Shown in pieces: positions 49,868-58,756 of a stretch of 64,000 bases of DNA. The DNA comes from Nitrospira sp. (GTDB lineage Bacteria > Nitrospirota > Nitrospiria > Nitrospirales > Nitrospiraceae): the NCBI GenBank assembly GCA_024998625.1, contig JACOEL010000016.1, positions 1 through 64,000 on the forward strand. Direction: 5' to 3'. The position numbers were made by a program, and so were the translations under genes. Each line of letters opens with the position of its first letter. Positions within the stretch are counted from its first letter, which is position 1. The notes below the pieces were generated by a model. The model saw only the letters and a program-made list of their open reading frames with translations. It did not search any database and had not been told where the DNA came from.

Positions 49868-52800
49868 TTGCCGGGGTTTACCTCAGTGAATCATGGGCGT
49901 ATCTTACGGAAGGTTATTGGAAAACCGACTTGCGAATCGGTTATCCGTTCGGAAAAGTTGAGGACACGATTCGAGATGCTCCCCGCAATTTGCTTTATAA
50001 CTTTCGGCGTCTTTGCCTTAGATGTGGCGATTCCGCTGGGGCATGGGATCTGGCTTCTGTACCTGTTCCCGCTTTGGCTGAGTTCACGACTGGCCTTGCC
50101 TGCGGCTCCTCTGCGATTGGCCTCGGTATGCACCGTCCTGCTCGTAGTGGGACTGTGGCTTGCGCCCCCCGGAGTCGATGTGACGACGGTGATGTTCAGT
50201 CGTGCCCTGGGTACCGTCATGATTTGGGGAGCCGCCTATCTGCTGTCGCAGCGGCGGGAAGCGGAGGACGCACTTCGTTCCGCCAATAGCCGTTTGGAAT
50301 TGCGAGTGGCGGAGCAGACGAAGAATCTGGTGTCCGTCAACGACCGGCTGAGGGCTCAATTGGTTGAGCAGCAGCGGATAGAGGCCGAGCTGCGTGAGAG
50401 TCGCCAGCGGTTCGAACTGGCTGCGGAAGGTGCGGATGTTGGGGTGTGGGAGTGGGACCTGCAGGAACACACCGCCTACTATTCCCCGCGCTGGAAAAGC
50501 CAGCTTGGATGCGCCGAATCGGAAATCGGGGGGACGGTCGCCGACTGGGAGGCGCGTCTTCACCCTGACGATCGCGCGCGGGCGCTGGCGACGGTCACGT
50601 TGTTTCAGGAAGGATATACCAAACAGTATCGTCTGGACCATCGCCTCCGGCATCACGATGGGTCCTATCGTTGGATTTCCTCGCTGGGCGCGGGAGTGTT
50701 CGATGAGCAGGGGCGGATGATCCGGATGACCGGCATTCACCTCGATGTTACCGCGAGGACACAGGCTGAGGAGGCGAGACGAGAAAGCGAAGACCGATAC
50801 CGCGCATTGGTGGAACAGGCCGGCGATATCATTTATCGAACCGATGCCGACGGGAGGTTCACCTACTGTAACCCGACCTCGCTTCGTGTCCTGGGCTATC
50901 TTCCGGAGGAGTTGCTCGGTCGGCACTACTTAGAGATCATTCTGCCGCAGTGCCGTTCGCAAGCCGCGCGGTTCTATGGCCGCCAGTTTATCCGTAAAAC
51001 GCCTCGTACCGTCTATGAGGTGCCGGTGGCTACCAAGGACGGCCGGGAAGTGTGGTTGGGGCAACATACGCAGCTGTTACTGGAGGGGGGCGTCGTCAGC
51101 GGCTTTCAAGTGGTGGCCCGGGATATCACCGAGCGGAAAGGGGTCGAGCAGGCGTTGCGCGAAAGCGAGGAGCGCTTTTCCAAGGCGTTTCACAGCAGTC
51201 CGGCCGGGATGGCGATCAGCCGACTTGAGGACGGTCGGGTGCTCGACGTGAATGAGGCATTCGTGCGGGTGTCCGGATTTTCCCGTGAAGAGCTGATCGG
51301 CATGTCCTCGCTCGACGTCGGAATCTGGGTGAATCCGGAGGATCGCCGGCACTTGGCCGAGATACTGAGGCGAGACGGGTTTCTGCGACATCTGGAAAAA
51401 GAGTTCCGCACGAAATCCGGCGAGGTGCGGCACGGGCTGTTCAATGTCGAGCCGGTTTGCATCGGCCGGGAGACCTGCGTGCTCACCCTCGTGCTGGACA
51501 TCACGAGACGCACGGAGGCGGAGGCGGCGTTGCGTCGCAGTCAATCAGTGCTGCAGGCGCACCAACATGCCTTGATGCGTCTGACAAAAAGCCAGCATAT
51601 CGGGTCGGGAGACTGGCAGTCGGCGCTGGAAGAACTGATGCAGACGTCGGCACTGGTGCTGGCCGTGGATCGGGCGAGTGTCTGGTTGCTGGATCGAACC
51701 GGAACAATACTGGACTGTGTGGAGCTGTATGAGCAAGGTCAGGCGCGGCATTCACGGGGGCAACGATTGAATGTGGCCGAGTACCCCCGCTACTTCGCAG
51801 AATTGCTCCAGGAGCAAATGGTCGATGCGCATGATGTCGCCGCTGATCCTCGCACGAGCGAGTTGGTGCAGCCCTATCTCGGGGCTCTCGGGATTGCTTC
51901 ATTGTTGGACGTGCCCATTTTCTTCGGCGGTCGATTGGCCGGCGTGGTCTGTCATGAGCGGGTCGGCGTGCCGCGCGAGTGGACGCGAGAAGAAGTGCAG
52001 TTCGCCACGTCCGTCGGGAATCTCGTGACCCTGGCCTACGAAGCGAAGCAACGGCTGGAGGCTGAAAATGCGCTCATGGCGGCGAAGGAGGCGGCCGAGT
52101 TCGCGAACCGGGCCAAGAGCGACTTCCTGGCGACCATGAGCCATGAGATCAGGACTCCGATGAATGCGATCGTCGGCATGGCGGATCTGTTGTCGGAAAC
52201 ACCCTTGAGCGAGGATCAGCGGGAGTATGTGCAGATTTTTCGCGACGCCGGGAGCAACCTGCTCAGCCTGATCAACGATGTGCTGGATCTCTCAAAAATC
52301 GAAGCCGGCCACTTGGATCTGGATTTGGTGGACTTCGATCTCAACGACCTGGTGCAACGGGCGGCTGAACTGGTTGCCGTGCGCGCCAGCGAGAAAAACC
52401 TGGAGTTGGCCTACCAGATTCAGCCGGATGTGCCGACGTCGCTGGTGGGCGACCCGAATCGTCTCCGGCAGGTGCTGCTCAACCTGTTGGGCAATGCCAT
52501 CAAGTTCACCGATGAAGGCGAAGTGGTCTTGCGTGTGGAACGGGACCCGCAGGCGGACGGCCCCGGGACCATCCTGTTTACGGTGCGGGATACCGGCATC
52601 GGAATTCCCACAGACAAGCTGGCTGCCATCTTCGAACAATTTACCCAGGTGGATTCCTCAACGACCCGTCCGTACAGCGGCACCGGGCTTGGATTGACGA
52701 TTTCCCGGCGATTGGTTGAGCGGATGGGCGGCAAAATGTGGGTGGACAGCGAGCTGGGCAGGGGGAGTACGTTCAGCTTCACCGCCAAGTTTGCCGTGCA

Positions 52801-53995
52801 TGTTCAACCCGCGCCGGCGGTTCCGCCGGCGCAGTGGGAGCAATTGGCGAGCTTGCGGACCTTGATCGTGGACGACAATGCGACTAACCGCCTGATTGTG
52901 CGGGAAACGCTGGCGGGATGGGGCATTCCCGCGGCCGAAGTCCCGGGCGGCGAGGAGGCGCTGTTCGAGCTGCGTCGCGCGTCGAAGGCCGGTGTGCCGT
53001 ATCGATTGGTGATCTTGGATGTGCGCATGCCGAAACTCAGCGGGTGGCAGGTTGCGGAGACGATTTCACGTACGCCGGGCCTGGCAGGGGTATCCATGAT
53101 CATGCTGACCTCCGAACGGCGCGCCGGGGACCAGGCGCGGGCCCGTGAGTGCGGAGTCGTGCGCTATCTCACGAAACCGTTTCGACGATCGGATTTGTTC
53201 AACGGCATGATGGCGGTGATCGGCAAGGCGGCGCTAGCTGAGGGGCATGCGCTGTTGCCTCAGCCGCTTGATTCGACCGGGGAAATGCCTGGGCTGAAGG
53301 TCCTGTTGGCCGAAGATTTTGTCGACAACCGCCGCATGATGGAGTTTTATTTCAAATCGACACCCCATCGGGTTGAGACGGCGGCCAACGGCCAACTTGC
53401 CGTCGAGATGTTCCAGAGGGGCTCGTACGATCTGGTGCTGATGGATATTCAGATGCCCGTGCTGGATGGGTATGCCGCGACGAGGGCGATCCGGTCGTGG
53501 GAGCAGGCGCAGGGCCGGAGTCCGGTACCGATTCTGGCGCTGACGGCCAATGCGTTGCAGAGTGAAGTCCAGCGGAGTCTGGATGCGGGGTGTACGGCGC
53601 ATTTGACGAAACCCATCCGTAAGGCCCGCCTGCTGGAAGCCATACAACTGTATTTCCATACGTCCGTTCCGGTCGCGTCGTCGTCGGATGCGTCAGCCGA
53701 ATCCATCGTGTTGCAGGTGAACGGAGAGTTTGAATCCCTGATGCCGGGGTTCCTGGAGCATCGACGGCAGGAACTCGTCCAGATTGCGGACGCATTGGAT
53801 CGAGGAGATTTTGAGACGATTCGCGAAATCGGGCATGGACTTAAGGGGGCCGGGGGGACCTATGGCCTCGAAGCAATCAGCGCCTATGGGCGAGCCTTGG
53901 AGACGGCGGCGGGTCAGAAGGACGGCGAGTGCGTTCGCGAGGCGCTTCATAGGCTCACCCGTTTTCTAGAGCGGCTGCAACTGGTCTATGTGTAA
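49868..53995 (+). CDS. Large hybrid sensor histidine kinase (PAS-PAS-PAS-GAF-HK-REC-REC-HPt)
   Basis: 1375 residues; a start at Met37 is possible. N-terminal membrane segments (about residues 37-125). Three PAS regions follow (about 175-300, 305-425, 430-550), a GAF (560-735), the HisKA box with His759 (MSHEIRTPMNAIVGMADLL), and a HATPase with N, G1 and G2 boxes (NLLGNAIKFT, DTGIGIP, GTGLGLTIS). Then come receivers with D1051 (VILDVRMPKLSGW) and D1193 (LVLMDIQMPVLDGY) and an HPt domain with His1323 (EIGHGLKGAGG). A complete phosphorelay in one chain. The sigma-54 activator 14 bases downstream is the probable output. Confidence 0.9.
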   Translation: MPGFTSVNHGRILRKVIGKPTCESVIRSEKLRTRFEMLPAICFITFGVFALDVAIPLGHGIWLLYLFPLWLSSRLALPAAPLRLASVCTVLLVVGLWLAPPGVDVTTVMFSRALGTVMIWGAAYLLSQRREAEDALRSANSRLELRVAEQTKNLVSVNDRLRAQLVEQQRIEAELRESRQRFELAAEGADVGVWEWDLQEHTAYYSPRWKSQLGCAESEIGGTVADWEARLHPDDRARALATVTLFQEGYTKQYRLDHRLRHHDGSYRWISSLGAGVFDEQGRMIRMTGIHLDVTARTQAEEARRESEDRYRALVEQAGDIIYRTDADGRFTYCNPTSLRVLGYLPEELLGRHYLEIILPQCRSQAARFYGRQFIRKTPRTVYEVPVATKDGREVWLGQHTQLLLEGGVVSGFQVVARDITERKGVEQALRESEERFSKAFHSSPAGMAISRLEDGRVLDVNEAFVRVSGFSREELIGMSSLDVGIWVNPEDRRHLAEILRRDGFLRHLEKEFRTKSGEVRHGLFNVEPVCIGRETCVLTLVLDITRRTEAEAALRRSQSVLQAHQHALMRLTKSQHIGSGDWQSALEELMQTSALVLAVDRASVWLLDRTGTILDCVELYEQGQARHSRGQRLNVAEYPRYFAELLQEQMVDAHDVAADPRTSELVQPYLGALGIASLLDVPIFFGGRLAGVVCHERVGVPREWTREEVQFATSVGNLVTLAYEAKQRLEAENALMAAKEAAEFANRAKSDFLATMSHEIRTPMNAIVGMADLLSETPLSEDQREYVQIFRDAGSNLLSLINDVLDLSKIEAGHLDLDLVDFDLNDLVQRAAELVAVRASEKNLELAYQIQPDVPTSLVGDPNRLRQVLLNLLGNAIKFTDEGEVVLRVERDPQADGPGTILFTVRDTGIGIPTDKLAAIFEQFTQVDSSTTRPYSGTGLGLTISRRLVERMGGKMWVDSELGRGSTFSFTAKFAVHVQPAPAVPPAQWEQLASLRTLIVDDNATNRLIVRETLAGWGIPAAEVPGGEEALFELRRASKAGVPYRLVILDVRMPKLSGWQVAETISRTPGLAGVSMIMLTSERRAGDQARARECGVVRYLTKPFRRSDLFNGMMAVIGKAALAEGHALLPQPLDSTGEMPGLKVLLAEDFVDNRRMMEFYFKSTPHRVETAANGQLAVEMFQRGSYDLVLMDIQMPVLDGYAATRAIRSWEQAQGRSPVPILALTANALQSEVQRSLDAGCTAHLTKPIRKARLLEAIQLYFHTSVPVASSSDASAESIVLQVNGEFESLMPGFLEHRRQELVQIADALDRGDFETIREIGHGLKGAGGTYGLEAISAYGRALETAAGQKDGECVREALHRLTRFLERLQLVYV

Positions 53996-54009: not shown

Positions 54010-55404
54010 ATGCGTGTCTTGCTGGTGGAAGACCACATCGATATCCGACGCCTGTTCGAACAGGTTATTGAGGCGCGGGGACATGATGTCACGGCTTGTG
54101 CGGACGGCGAGTCGGCCTGGGAGGCCTACAGTCGGCGGCCCTATGAACTCGTGCTGCTCGATTGGGAGTTGCGAGGGGGCGGAATGGACGGCCTGCAGGT
54201 GTGTCGGACCATTCGATCGAGTCCCGGCGGCGACCGCTGTGTCATCGTCATGATCACCGGGCATGATTCTCCGGAATCCTTGCGTACGGCGCTCCAGGCG
54301 GGGGTCAACGACTATCTGGTGAAGCCCGTCGGTGTCGAGTTCTTGAAGCTGCGGCTGACGATTGCGGAACAGTGGGTGGAGAGTGTGCGACGGCGCTTCG
54401 CGGCGGAAGATCAAGCGCAGGCCTTGCAGTCGCAGTTAGCCGATCACGGCAAGTTCCATGACTTGATCGGCCGGAGTCCGGCGATGGTGGTGCTCTACGA
54501 AGGGATCCAGAAGATCGCCGCCGTGGATGCGACCGTGTTGATCGAAGGCGAAACCGGCACGGGAAAAGAATTGGTGGCCCGCGCAATTCATCTCTCCAGC
54601 CGCCGCGCGTCCCACACCTTTTTAGCCGTCAATTGCGCCGGGTTCACCGACTCGATTCTGGGCAGCCAGCTCTTCGGTCATAAGAAGGGGGCCTTCACGG
54701 GGGCGATCGATAATCAGGAAGGTGTGTTTGAGGCCGCGCAGGGGGGCACCATATTTCTGGATGAGATCGGCGATATTTCTCCTGCCGTGCAGACCAGTCT
54801 CCTGCGTGTGCTGCAGGAGCGTGAAGTGACCCGATTGGGAGAATCCAAGCCGCGCAAGGTGGATGTGCGAGTGGTGGTAGCGACACACCACAACCTCGCG
54901 GAAGATGTGGAAAAAGGTACATTCAGACGGGACCTGCTGTATCGCATCAAGGTGGCTCGGCTCCAACTCGCCCCGCTTCGTGAACGGCCCACCGACATTC
55001 CGTTACTGGTCCATGCCTTTCTCGGACAGTTCCGGTCCGTGATGGAGAAGCCTGTGTTACAGGTGAGCCCGGAAGCGCTGCAGCTTCTCATCAGCCATTC
55101 GTGGCCCGGTAATGTGCGAGAACTCAAAAGTGCGGTGGAGTCGGCCCTGATTCATTGTAAGGGGACCGTGGTGCGGGTGGAGGATCTTCCGCCGGAGGTC
55201 CGGCATCCAGAGCCTCCGGCGACCTATGTGCCTCTTCAACGCCAGGACGAACGGACGCGCATGGTTGGGGCCTTGCAGCAAACGGGCGGCAACCGTTCGG
55301 AGGCGGCACGCTTGTTGGGGATGAGCCGGCGAACCTTCTATCGCCGCCTGGCTGAATACGATGTGTCTGCACTGGGTGATGGGGAGGATGCCTCGCTTCA
55401 GTGA
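54010..55404 (+). CDS. NtrC-type sigma-54-dependent response regulator
   Basis: 464 residues. Receiver with D51 (ELVLLDWELRGGG). The AAA+ domain has Walker A GETGTGKE (residues 180-187), the sigma-54 contact loop GAFTGA (227-232) and FLDEIGDIS. C-terminal Fis-type helix-turn-helix: GGNRSEAARLLGMSRRTFYR. The receiver has a short insertion (RGGGMDGL). It would activate sigma-54 promoters when phosphorylated by the adjacent kinase. Two candidate sigma-54 promoters lie at 55688 and 57665. Confidence 0.9.
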   Translation: MRVLLVEDHIDIRRLFEQVIEARGHDVTACADGESAWEAYSRRPYELVLLDWELRGGGMDGLQVCRTIRSSPGGDRCVIVMITGHDSPESLRTALQAGVNDYLVKPVGVEFLKLRLTIAEQWVESVRRRFAAEDQAQALQSQLADHGKFHDLIGRSPAMVVLYEGIQKIAAVDATVLIEGETGTGKELVARAIHLSSRRASHTFLAVNCAGFTDSILGSQLFGHKKGAFTGAIDNQEGVFEAAQGGTIFLDEIGDISPAVQTSLLRVLQEREVTRLGESKPRKVDVRVVVATHHNLAEDVEKGTFRRDLLYRIKVARLQLAPLRERPTDIPLLVHAFLGQFRSVMEKPVLQVSPEALQLLISHSWPGNVRELKSAVESALIHCKGTVVRVEDLPPEVRHPEPPATYVPLQRQDERTRMVGALQQTGGNRSEAARLLGMSRRTFYRRLAEYDVSALGDGEDASLQ

Positions 55405-55562
55405 ATCCTCCTCGATGGCGATCTAAAAGCGGGGGCCGGCACCTCCGCGCGTCAAATAAATCTTTCCCCCGGTCCACCATTCTTCTTTTTTCACCTGACG
55501 CGCCATCCGCGCGCATCAGATTCAGCCTGCGCGCTCCCGCGCGAGCAGGTGGCGCGACTGTG

Positions 55563-55703
55563 TTGAGGCACATGGCACAGGTCTGACACAACTCATTGCG
55601 CCATGTCCTTGACGCACGAAATGGACGGATTTTCTATTGATCGGCGTAAGTCCCTAGTATTTCTTGATGCTTCGTTGCCATCGCGGATGGCACGATCCTT
55701 GAT
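55563..55703 (+). promoter_or_regulatory. Candidate sigma-54 promoter and activator site, module A
   Basis: TGGCACGATCCTTGAT at 55688-55703 has -24/-12 spacing (GG, 10 bases, GA instead of GC). Upstream, TTGAGGCACA (55563-55572) resembles a motif ahead of module B and could be an activator site. The gene at 55782 follows. Confidence 0.6.
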
Positions 55704-55781
55704 ATGAGGAAGAGGCATGAGAGCAAGTTGCCACCGGCAGTAATGAGTCGAGCGACGAGGAGAGGCCAAGAGGGAACGCAT

Positions 55782-56048
55782 ATGGATGTCGCGGGATTTT
55801 TACTCTTATACGATGTGGGCTACGACGTGTTGGCGACGATTCCGCCCTCATCCTTCGGTCCCTTCGATCAGCCTGATGTGAAAGAACAGATTGACGGATA
55901 TGGGATCGATATGTCGCGAGTGCCGCACCGGACATGGACAGATCAAGCAAGGGCAGTCGGAGCTGTGCTGACATGCCTGCAAGGGTTGTCGCCCAGCTCA
56001 TCGGGATTTCCGACCGCGACTCGTGAAGGAATGAAGGGCCTGAACTAG
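55782..56048 (+). CDS. Small protein of module A, unknown
   Basis: 88 residues from the ATG at 55782 (GAGGGAACGC upstream). MDVAGFLLLYDVGYDVLATI, PPSSFGPFDQPDVKEQIDGY has no known domain. It stands first behind the sigma-54-type promoter and 18 bases before the LuxR-type gene, like the 57777 gene in module B. Confidence 0.55.
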   Translation: MDVAGFLLLYDVGYDVLATIPPSSFGPFDQPDVKEQIDGYGIDMSRVPHRTWTDQARAVGAVLTCLQGLSPSSSGFPTATREGMKGLN

Positions 56049-56066
56049 AACCAAGGAGAGAGCACC

Positions 56067-56387
56067 ATGTGGAGTGAACAACAGAATGTTGCGCAGGTCG
56101 AACATGAGGCGAATGTGCAAGCCTCGCCAGCTGGGATCGGGCAGGCGTTGGGCGGCGGCCTGGCGGTCAAGCGACGTCCCGAAGATTTGACTCCTCGCGA
56201 ACAGGAAATCTTGCAGTTGGTCTGGGCTGGACTGACCAATCGCACGATCGCGGAGCAGCTGCATATCAGCATCAAGACTGCGGAGGCTCACCGCGCCAAT
56301 ATGATGAAAAAATTGCGTGTGTCTAACATTGCGCAACTCTTGAAGACCGCGCTGGAAGAGGGGCTGCTCGCCACCCATGCGGGCTGA
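56067..56387 (+). CDS. LuxR-type helix-turn-helix protein, module A
   Basis: 106 residues. No receiver; the LuxR domain is DLTPREQEILQLVWAGLTNR, TIAEQLHISIKTAEAHRANM, MKKLRVSNIAQLLKTALEEG. About 65% similar by eye to the 58081 protein over 70 residues. It starts 18 bases after the 55782 gene (AAGGAGAGAGC upstream). As a stand-alone output domain its activity may depend on the partner protein or on amount only. Confidence 0.85.
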   Translation: MWSEQQNVAQVEHEANVQASPAGIGQALGGGLAVKRRPEDLTPREQEILQLVWAGLTNRTIAEQLHISIKTAEAHRANMMKKLRVSNIAQLLKTALEEGLLATHAG

Positions 56388-56500
56388 TGGGGTTCGCGGC
56401 GGCCTGCGTTCTCGGGGGAAGTCCCACTCCCGGCGGCGCAGCAGTTCCCCGCGAATCCGCCCCCTCACAGCATAAATGAGGCTCGCGCTGGCGAGGGTGT

Positions 56501-56929
56501 TTGCAGTACAATGCCGCACCGTTGCTGGAGCGAGCCGTGGTCGAACAGCGTATCGAAGAAATCACGCGCGCCAATCTCGCCTTTTATGCCGCGTTTGAAA
56601 GTCTGGACATGCTCCAGATGGACAAAGTGTGGGCGCATCTCGAGTACGTCACCTGCATTCATCCCGGGTGGAGCCTCCGCAGCGACTGGCCGGCGGTGCG
56701 CGATTCATGGGTACTCATCTTCAACAACACCTTCTCGATGAAATTTGAGCTGTCGGACGTGCAGGTTCAGGTCGCGGGGGATCTGGGGTGGGTCATCTGC
56801 ACCGAACATCTCACCAGCCGTCAGGACGACCAGCCGGTCGAAACGCGTGTCCTCGCGACCAATCTCTTTGAGCGTATCGGCGACGAATGGTTGATGATTC
56901 ATCACCATGGCTCGCCGGTGATGGGCTAA
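56501..56929 (+). CDS. SnoaL / NTF2-like protein
   Basis: 142 residues from a TTG at 56501; a GTG at 56537 with GGAG upstream is an equally good start. RIEEITRANLAFYAAFESLD, YVTCIHPGWSLRSDWPAVRD, LATNLFERIGDEWLMIHHHG are the usual cone-shaped NTF2-like pattern of DUF4440/SnoaL-like proteins. Role unknown: ligand binding or a small-molecule enzyme. Confidence 0.75.
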   Translation: MQYNAAPLLERAVVEQRIEEITRANLAFYAAFESLDMLQMDKVWAHLEYVTCIHPGWSLRSDWPAVRDSWVLIFNNTFSMKFELSDVQVQVAGDLGWVICTEHLTSRQDDQPVETRVLATNLFERIGDEWLMIHHHGSPVMG

Positions 56930-56952
56930 CCCCATCGCCGGGGAAATTCCGG

Positions 56953-57360
56953 ATGTCCGGCGAAGATCGAACCTCTGTCGGTGTTCGGTGGTTGGCGCTG
57001 GGACTCTTCTTGCTCACCGGCTGTACCACCGTGGCTCAGGTGACGACGTGGTCGGATGAATCCTGTCGTTACAAGGTCCGGGACCAGCTTGAATCCATCC
57101 TCACGGAGGAGGGCGAACAAGGTGATGTCGCCAATCGCCTGGCCGTGAATACCACCGTGGTGCTGGCGACCGGTTCTTTGGGCCCCCGTCCCTTCGGTGT
57201 CTCTTCGCCTTCCGGCGCCGACTATAGTTTCTTCGTGCAGCGTAAAGGCGAGGGCTGTCTCCTACGATTGTTCGGCCGTCAGAAGGGGTTTACCCGGTAC
57301 ACCAATAACCTGACCTATATTTCCACTCGTTCCCTCGACGGTTGTGCTTGTGCTGAATAA
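56953..57360 (+). CDS. Small lipoprotein of unknown function
   Basis: 135 residues from the ATG at 56953. Leader VGVRWLALGLFLLTGC gives a lipobox with Cys about residue 24. The mature part (YKVRDQLESILTEEGEQGDV, LATGSLGPRPFGVSSPSGAD, LRLFGRQKGFTRYTNNLTYI) has several Cys, including CACAE at the end. Family not recognised. Confidence 0.65.
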   Translation: MSGEDRTSVGVRWLALGLFLLTGCTTVAQVTTWSDESCRYKVRDQLESILTEEGEQGDVANRLAVNTTVVLATGSLGPRPFGVSSPSGADYSFFVQRKGEGCLLRLFGRQKGFTRYTNNLTYISTRSLDGCACAE

Positions 57361-57573
57361 CCGCCGTGTGACGGTTGCGCTTCCCGTTTTCCTGCCGTTC
57401 TCTTTGGTGCTGTAAACCGTCGCCACATCGGTCTCGCACAATTCCCTCTCGCTGTCTGCTTCCTCAAAGTTCCCCAGAATCCGTTCCTATACGGCGATGT
57501 ACCCAGCCAATCTGCCGCCTGACAGTGTCTCACGTTACTGTCTCAGGTTTGAATTCTGGCACACTCTTGTTGC

Positions 57574-57680
57574 TTGTGGCACAACTTGTGGTGTTGGGGA
57601 TGAATCGAGAATTCGTGCTCAACTTATTGTTTTATCTTGAACAATACCTTCTGGCCGGTTCTTGGCACAGGCCTTGATGT
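57574..57680 (+). promoter_or_regulatory. Candidate sigma-54 promoter and activator site, module B
   Basis: TGGCACAGGCCTTGAT at 57665-57680 matches the module A promoter in 13 of 16 positions with identical spacing. TTGTGGCACAA at 57574-57584, an 11-bp palindrome, could be the activator site. The surrounding 57361-57776 stretch has no gene. Confidence 0.6.
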
Positions 57681-57776
57681 AGTGTGGATATGTCTCGTAG
57701 GGCAAAAACCTTGGGGACTTTGATGGAGACGGGCAGTCGGGAGTCCTGACTGTGTGGAAACAAAGGAGAAGTGATC

Positions 57777-58022
57777 ATGATGGTGAAGGGGTTCTTACTC
57801 AAAGACAGGCAAGAGCAAGAGTATCTACTGGCTATTCAGCCGGCCACCCACGGCATGTTCGAGCGGTTGATTGTCCGCCAAAAGGTCGATGGGTGTTGGG
57901 TCGAGCTCAACGGGAATGCACAGGGGGCGTGGCAGCCGCGGACACAAGCCATTACCGCTGTGTTGGGGTATCTGCAGCGCCTTTGGGACACGTCCAAGCC
58001 TGTCTTGGCACGGGGGAATTAA
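57777..58022 (+). CDS. Small protein of module B, unknown
   Basis: 81 residues from the ATG at 57777 (AAAGGAG eight bases upstream). MMVKGFLLKDRQEQEYLLAI, CWVELNGNAQGAWQPRTQAI, LGYLQRLWDTSKPVLARG. No known domain. The 59 bases to the next gene contain GGAGG just before the start at 58081. Confidence 0.6.
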   Translation: MMVKGFLLKDRQEQEYLLAIQPATHGMFERLIVRQKVDGCWVELNGNAQGAWQPRTQAITAVLGYLQRLWDTSKPVLARGN

Positions 58023-58080
58023 AGAGGCGGCACCTACAGGGAAGTGAATCATGCGGAAAGGGTGACGAAGGAGGGACTTG

Positions 58081-58437
58081 ATGTTGGCTGAAAAAAAAGA
58101 CAGCCGGGTAGGGAGTCAAGAGGTGGCGGAGGACGGAGTCTTCACGACACATCGTCCATCGTCTGAGGCTCTTGCAGAGGCCGCCGTGAAGCGAAGGCCG
58201 GAGGATCTCACGCCGCGTGAGTTGGAAATTCTTCGCCTGATCTGGGATGGCCATACCAATCGAAGTATCGCAGAGCAGCTGAATATCAGCATGAAGACGG
58301 CGGATACCCATCGCTCGAACATGATGAAGAAGCTGCGTGCCTGTAACACTGCCCAACTACTCAAAGCGGCGCTGGAGGGAAATCTGCTGGAGACTGACTC
58401 GGGTCTGAGGCGTCCCGGTCGGGGAGGCCAACGCTGA
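58081..58437 (+). CDS. LuxR-type helix-turn-helix protein, module B
   Basis: 118 residues (GGAGGGACTTG upstream). An N-terminal 35-residue extension precedes DLTPRELEILRLIWDGHTNR, SIAEQLNISMKTADTHRSNM, MKKLRACNTAQLLKAALEGN. It is a paralogue of the 56067 protein, so the two modules appear to be a duplication. Stand-alone LuxR domain. Confidence 0.85.
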   Translation: MLAEKKDSRVGSQEVAEDGVFTTHRPSSEALAEAAVKRRPEDLTPRELEILRLIWDGHTNRSIAEQLNISMKTADTHRSNMMKKLRACNTAQLLKAALEGNLLETDSGLRRPGRGGQR

Positions 58438-58519
58438 GGGCCCACAGCCCGGAGACCGGTTTGAATTGCTGACCTTCCGTCCGGTGCAGGACAGGAAGGC
58501 CCAGGTGGAGTGGGGAGGC

Positions 58520-58756
58520 TTACAAGCCGGGAATGGGATGGGGCAGGTCTTTGGTGCCGAGGGTCTGGAGCCATTCAGACGCGATCACATCGCGTTCTTC
58601 CATTGTCATGCCGGCATATTTCCGAAACATCTGTGGGCCCCGTCGCCGCCTCCACGTGAGGAAGCCGAGAAAGTGATCCTTGCAGATAGCATGGGTACCT
58701 GCCGGCGCATACACTCTCGCCTGACATCCGTCGATTAAACAGCTCTGTCCGCTCAT
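58520..58756 (-). CDS. Small Cys/His-containing protein
   Basis: 78 residues from the ATG at 58756 (GGGGGGAT upstream). CLIDGCQARVYAPAGTHAIC and KDHF could form a zinc site; the C-terminal helix is YAGMTMEERDVIASEWLQTL. It is the only minus-strand gene between 49.9 and 59.9 kb. Family not recognised. Confidence 0.6.
   Translation of the reverse strand: MSGQSCLIDGCQARVYAPAGTHAICKDHFLGFLTWRRRRGPQMFRKYAGMTMEERDVIASEWLQTLGTKDLPHPIPGL

Follow-up and report, generated by a model that had tools for sequence, protein, structure and literature searches.

The window analysed here, a stretch of 64,000 nucleotides of Nitrospira DNA (contig JACOEL010000016.1, positions 1 to 64,000), comes from a 4.4 Mb genome of the Nitrospira type, a genus of nitrite-oxidising bacteria. 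It carries, all on the plus strand, a gene for a hybrid histidine kinase, a gene for an NtrC-type activator (bEBP1) and two modules, each made up of a promoter, a small open reading frame and a gene for a LuxR-type protein, at the positions that a first-pass annotation of the same DNA had given for these modules (Table 1). The assignment of bEBP1 to the NtrC-type enhancer-binding proteins follows from its receiver, AAA+ and Fis domains, which all score above their cut-offs. The GAFTGA loop can be read in the translation, and the closest named matches of the protein are Nitrospira metagenome assemblies.

Table 1. Features of the two-module locus, in positions of the window.
Feature	Position	Strand	Description	Basis or remark
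Hybrid histidine kinase	49868..53995	+	PAS x3, GAF, HisKA, HATPase, two receiver domains, Hpt	Pfam; start codon approximate
bEBP1, NtrC-type activator	54010..55404	+	PF00072 receiver, PF00158 AAA+ sigma-54 activation domain, PF02954 Fis helix-turn-helix	Pfam
P1 upstream repeats	55573..55604	+	TGGCACA 55573-55579, TGACACA 55584-55590, inverted TGCGCCAT 55597-55604
P1, sigma-54-type promoter	55688..55703	+	TGGCACGATCCTTGAT; A for C at -12	Most conserved block of its region
sm1, small protein	55782..56048	+	88 aa; homologous to sm2	Purifying selection, weaker than sm2
lux1, GerE-only LuxR-type protein	56067..56387	+	106 aa	Pfam PF00196 only
P2 upstream repeats, putative bEBP2 type	57526..57545	+	TGTCTCA 57526-57532 and 57539-57545
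P2 upstream repeats, putative bEBP1 type	57557..57583	+	TGGCACA 57557-57563 and 57577-57583
P2, sigma-54-type promoter	57663..57678	+	TGGCACAGGCCTTGAT; A for C at -12	GGCA and TTGA invariant, 22/22
P2 transcript 5' leader block	57697..57717	+	GTAGGGCAAAAACCTTGGGGA	13 invariant columns in 23 sequences
sm2, small protein	57777..58022	+	81 aa	At least 89% identical in two-module genomes; dN 0.02-0.06
lux2, GerE-only LuxR-type protein	58081..58437	+	118 aa; paralogue of lux1	Pfam PF00196

The gene order kinase, bEBP1, sm1, lux1, SnoaL-like protein, small lipoprotein-like protein, sm2, lux2 is kept in some 20 Nitrospira genomes, a count that includes loci with local losses and contig ends, and the kinase adjoins bEBP1 in nearly all orthologous loci. 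A single module only is present in G001 and G007, and in G004 lux2 is present but no sm2 is recognisable. No protein of the locus is better conserved than the SnoaL-like protein between the modules (56537-56929), with 95-100% identity across all genomes compared.

The published sigma-54 consensus consists of GG at -24 and TGC at -12 (PMC3844500, PMC4641369). Here the GG at -24 is found, correctly spaced from the -12 element, in all 67 aligned sequences, which comprise 21 of P1, 22 of P2 and 24 of a third promoter of the same type, P3, located elsewhere in the genome. GGCA and TTG are invariant in these sequences and their spacing is constant; in P1 and P2 the base after TTG is always A, in P3 either A or T. 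The -12 element of P1 and P2 is thus always TGA, and that of P3 TGA or TGT, rather than TGC, so that P1 and P2 would work like sigma-54 promoters with a variant -12 element. The A in place of the usual C, which the first-pass annotation had pointed out as unusual, is present in every aligned orthologue of both promoters, with P1 intact in every one of the 24 Nitrospira loci read (the 21 aligned and three more) and P2 in all 22 aligned orthologous loci. The exact string TGGCACN5TTGAT occurs at three sites only in the genome, two of which are P1 and P2; the third, on contig C17, was rejected, as a long open frame spans the site and repeats are missing. A genome-wide search for promoter and LuxR pairs had been suggested as a check, and the genome has a further such pair, P3 and its own LuxR gene, lux3. 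The consensus-like string TGGCAYN5TTGCW is found 24 times in the genome, against nine for the reversed control, and some of these strings lie just before open reading frames, which indicates that consensus-type -12 elements probably coexist with the TGA variant. One rpoN gene is present in the genome.

A TTG(A/T)GGCACA motif had been described upstream of each promoter, and one of the two contains a conserved repeat. Upstream of P2, TTGTGGCACA at 57574 includes the conserved TGGCACA at 57577, whereas for P1 the conserved element is not TTGAGGCACA at 55563 but the repeats that begin beside it, TGGCACA at 55573 and TGACACA at 55584. The TGTCTCA repeats of P2 at 57526 and 57539, which are conserved too, had been overlooked. 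In the orthologues, the P1 repeats, which are of a TGRCACA type, are conserved, near -117, -106 and -93 relative to the promoter. In P2, every one of the 22 orthologues carries one or more repeats of each type, those of the TGTCTC type near -138 and -125 and those of the TGRCACA type near -107 and -87. These distances are fixed and typical of activator sites, which usually lie 70-150 bp upstream of sigma-54 promoters (PMC3844500). With one mismatch allowed, TTGWGGCACA is neither rarer nor commoner in the window than expected by chance and was discarded as a rare motif; what speaks for the upstream elements is that they are conserved and fixed in position, not the string as such. Between the repeats and the promoter, the P1 region has two additional conserved blocks, TTGACGC (55609-55615) and TAAGTCCCTAGTATTT (55647-55662), which are perhaps a candidate site for the LuxR protein itself.

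P3 lies between lux3 and the gene for bEBP2 (L164, 2409-4865, contig C4 of G000), a paralogue of bEBP1 that has the AAA+ and Fis domains without a receiver and is 65% identical to bEBP1 over the AAA+ domain and the helix-turn-helix. The lux3 gene behind P3 is a third GerE-only LuxR gene and has no small protein, and an array of TGTCTC/GAGACA with almost no TGRCACA is found upstream of the promoter. In G012 and G017, both the small protein and a close bEBP2 are missing. In pattern searches of the genome for a wider regulon, 21 TGGCAYN5TTGA sites were found, and among those whose upstream DNA was readable, paired or arrayed repeats occur only at P1, P2 and P3. The other TGRCACA or TGTCTC pairs in the genome have no such promoter close downstream.

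The LuxR proteins had been taken as paralogues that consist of a helix-turn-helix domain alone, and this is borne out for both lux1 and lux2. The GerE domain PF00196 is found at 70.5 and 68.4 bits (cut-off 23.5), which places them in the superfamily, and no match to an autoinducer-binding or receiver domain is seen in their 106 and 118 residues, so that they are neither quorum-sensing LuxR proteins nor of the NarL/FixJ type. LuxR proteins with the helix-turn-helix only include PedR and GerE, which the lux1 and lux2 proteins resemble in having the GerE helix-turn-helix without a sensor domain; the Nitrospira genes differ in lying behind a sigma-54-type promoter and in being paired with a small protein. 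In NCBIfam they match best to response regulators of the SsrB, TtrR, MctR and FixJ types, over the helix-turn-helix only and below the curated cut-offs. In a LuxR tree, built on few columns, lux2 and lux3 each form one group and lux1 nearly does, groupings that fit one duplication within the genus. Two further GerE-only LuxR genes are present at L161 and L162 (contigs C14 and C12 of G000), with no sigma-54-type promoter within 700 bases upstream.

The small first proteins of the two modules had been reported not to resemble each other clearly, which proved wrong. The local alignment of sm1 and sm2 scores 91, while shuffled sequences score 22 +/- 3.8 and none out of 2000 reaches as high, and the two align end to end, at 31% identity, within a family of 40 sequences; this rules out that they are unrelated. 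As sm1 and sm2 are homologous, the duplication involved the whole module, consistent with an origin by tandem duplication inside the Nitrospira genus. The proposal that the promoters and regulators form the conserved unit is only partly upheld. It applies to module 1, where at least three genomes (G024, G016 and G006), perhaps others, have a broken sm1 but an intact P1 and lux1; it does not apply to module 2, where sm2 is strongly conserved and under strong purifying selection, with dS above 0.7 or saturated at the dN given in Table 1. The constraint on sm1 is looser and the gene is decaying in several species, with the reservation that many of the genomes with a broken sm1 are draft assemblies, in which single frameshifts could be errors. 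The window's own sm1 is without two aromatic residues that are conserved in the family.

Searches of the small proteins against Pfam, NCBIfam and the PDB sequences gave nothing significant. The predicted fold is beta-beta-beta-beta-alpha with a mean pLDDT of 80, and as neither Foldseek (E below 0.5) nor VIA-align (Z of at least 5) gave a match, I claim no fold for them. Among 198 genomes of the phylum, the only match outside Nitrospira is in a genome of another genus (G117).

From the anatomy, homology, conservation and site positions, which are directly observed, the locus is probably a signal-responsive sigma-54 circuit that runs from the kinase through bEBP1 to P1 and P2, and from there to the pairs of small protein and LuxR protein. 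The hybrid kinase would phosphorylate bEBP1, a pairing suggested by their adjacency, and bEBP1 would bind the TGRCACA repeats that precede P1 and P2 by about 87-117 bp, and would drive sigma-54 RNA polymerase at both promoters. The output would be two related pairs of a small protein and a GerE-only LuxR protein. As the latter are without a receiver or ligand domain, their activity would be set mainly by the amount produced, with the co-produced small protein perhaps tuning it; that the small protein modulates its LuxR protein is a guess from the operon order. Sigma-54 control by bEBP1 is, at the level of sequence, well supported by adjacency, by the complete NtrC-type activator, by the 67 promoter sequences and by the fixed repeats. 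Counting against the circuit, the usual C is missing from the -12 element, and in G024 the kinase and bEBP1 are absent beside lux1, yet both promoters and their upstream sites are retained. In the genus search only bEBP2 was found in G024, which would fit bEBP2 acting on its promoters; a recent loss or an assembly gap are the alternatives.

P2 has both types of site, whereas P1 and P3 have mainly one each, and P2 therefore looks like a composite enhancer. Its TGTCTC repeats are of the type found alone before lux3, next to bEBP2, and P2 may, as a tentative reading, integrate both activators. It is doubtful that the whole of a more extended proposal holds, namely that P2 is a composite enhancer at which bEBP1 (on TGRCACA) and bEBP2 (on TGTCTC) would together control a duplicated output, that the promoters form a conserved class with a non-consensus -12 element (TGA/TGT), and that the small proteins would be a new family of LuxR partners or modulators.

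Alternatively, bEBP1 may read TGRCACA and TGTCTC/TGAGACA alike, so that P2 would just have more and looser sites and there would be no integration of two activators, an explanation that deserves serious weight even if I would not favour it. Three P1 orthologues have TGAGACA at the position where others have TGGCACA, so that the two types of site may not be distinct, and this, together with the similarity of bEBP1 and bEBP2, the recognition helices of which are near-identical by eye, means that one protein may read both. However, the site types are almost fully separated among the promoters, with one TGTCTC-type repeat in only 3 of 21 P1 and one TGRCACA in only 2 of 24 P3, and both types in all 22 P2.

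A different explanation concerns the function of the circuit, as the LuxR proteins could switch surface polysaccharide genes and thus control the envelope or exopolysaccharide; this I consider unlikely. The sole hint of function is the neighbourhood of the remote small-protein homologue in G117 (L288, contig C23), which belongs to another genus of the same family. This homologue has a promoter of the same type as P1 and P2, TGGCATATGAATTGA, 66 bp upstream, with a TGTCTCGTTGAGACA dyad further upstream, and is directly followed by genes that encode an XrtA-type ATPase, an HD-GYP-like protein (by eye), polysaccharide export and chain-length proteins. Open reading frames for OmpA-like and other membrane proteins, also read by eye, lie beside bEBP2 and lux3, and sigma-54 is generally tied to the bacterial exterior (PMC3162934). 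However, this concerns one genome and a homology that is weak by itself (E 4.7e-4), and the ATPase of G117 is matched at only 30% in the window's genome, the polysaccharide-type cluster of which, on contig C9, was found without such a promoter. That another factor binds the conserved P1 and P2 blocks, and that transcription starts at promoters of the sigma-70 type, is very improbable, as a sigma-70 scan of 55300-58700 gave no plus-strand promoter and the -24/-12 geometry is repeated at three loci with an activator gene upstream or in the locus, as well as at the G117 homologue, even though the -12 base differs from the consensus C and P1 has the additional TTGACGC and TAAGTCCCTAGTATTT blocks.

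The circuit proposed for the locus is of a familiar kind, and the locus itself is real, conserved and apparently undescribed; no paper on the system was retrieved from the library searched. The PrsK/PrsR system, acting on the sigma-54 promoters of PEP-CTERM genes, is similar in that a kinase and an NtrC-like activator were inferred from conserved upstream sites and a -24/-12 promoter (PMC1569441). However, bEBP1 is not a PrsR, with 329 bits against an NCBIfam TIGR02915 cut-off of 502.6, the Nitrospira -12 element is TGA and not TGC, and the targets are LuxR-type regulators instead of PEP-CTERM proteins. An experimentally known precedent for two related activators on one sigma-54 promoter is that of LuxO and SypG on qrr1 in Vibrio fischeri (PMC10162802), where the convergence of DctD and NifA on dctA is also cited. 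At qrr1 the shared sites overlap and the output is a small RNA, whereas at P2, as predicted from sequence alone, the site types stand side by side and the output consists of protein regulators. Nitrospira has many sigma-54 activators, with about 34 full-length domain matches in this genome; the locus would offer a defined circuit of three promoters for which activators, sites and outputs are predicted, and in which the cell may be able to integrate the signals of two activators through very well conserved promoters, if the reading is true. It also brings to light a small-protein family without significant database matches and a genus-wide class of promoters with a non-consensus -12 element.

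The leader of the P2 transcript was considered as a structured RNA and rejected: its sequence is conserved, but its covariation is no better than in shuffles, and Rfam gave no match for it. The conserved block within this leader is retained even in G004, where no sm2 can be recognised before lux2.
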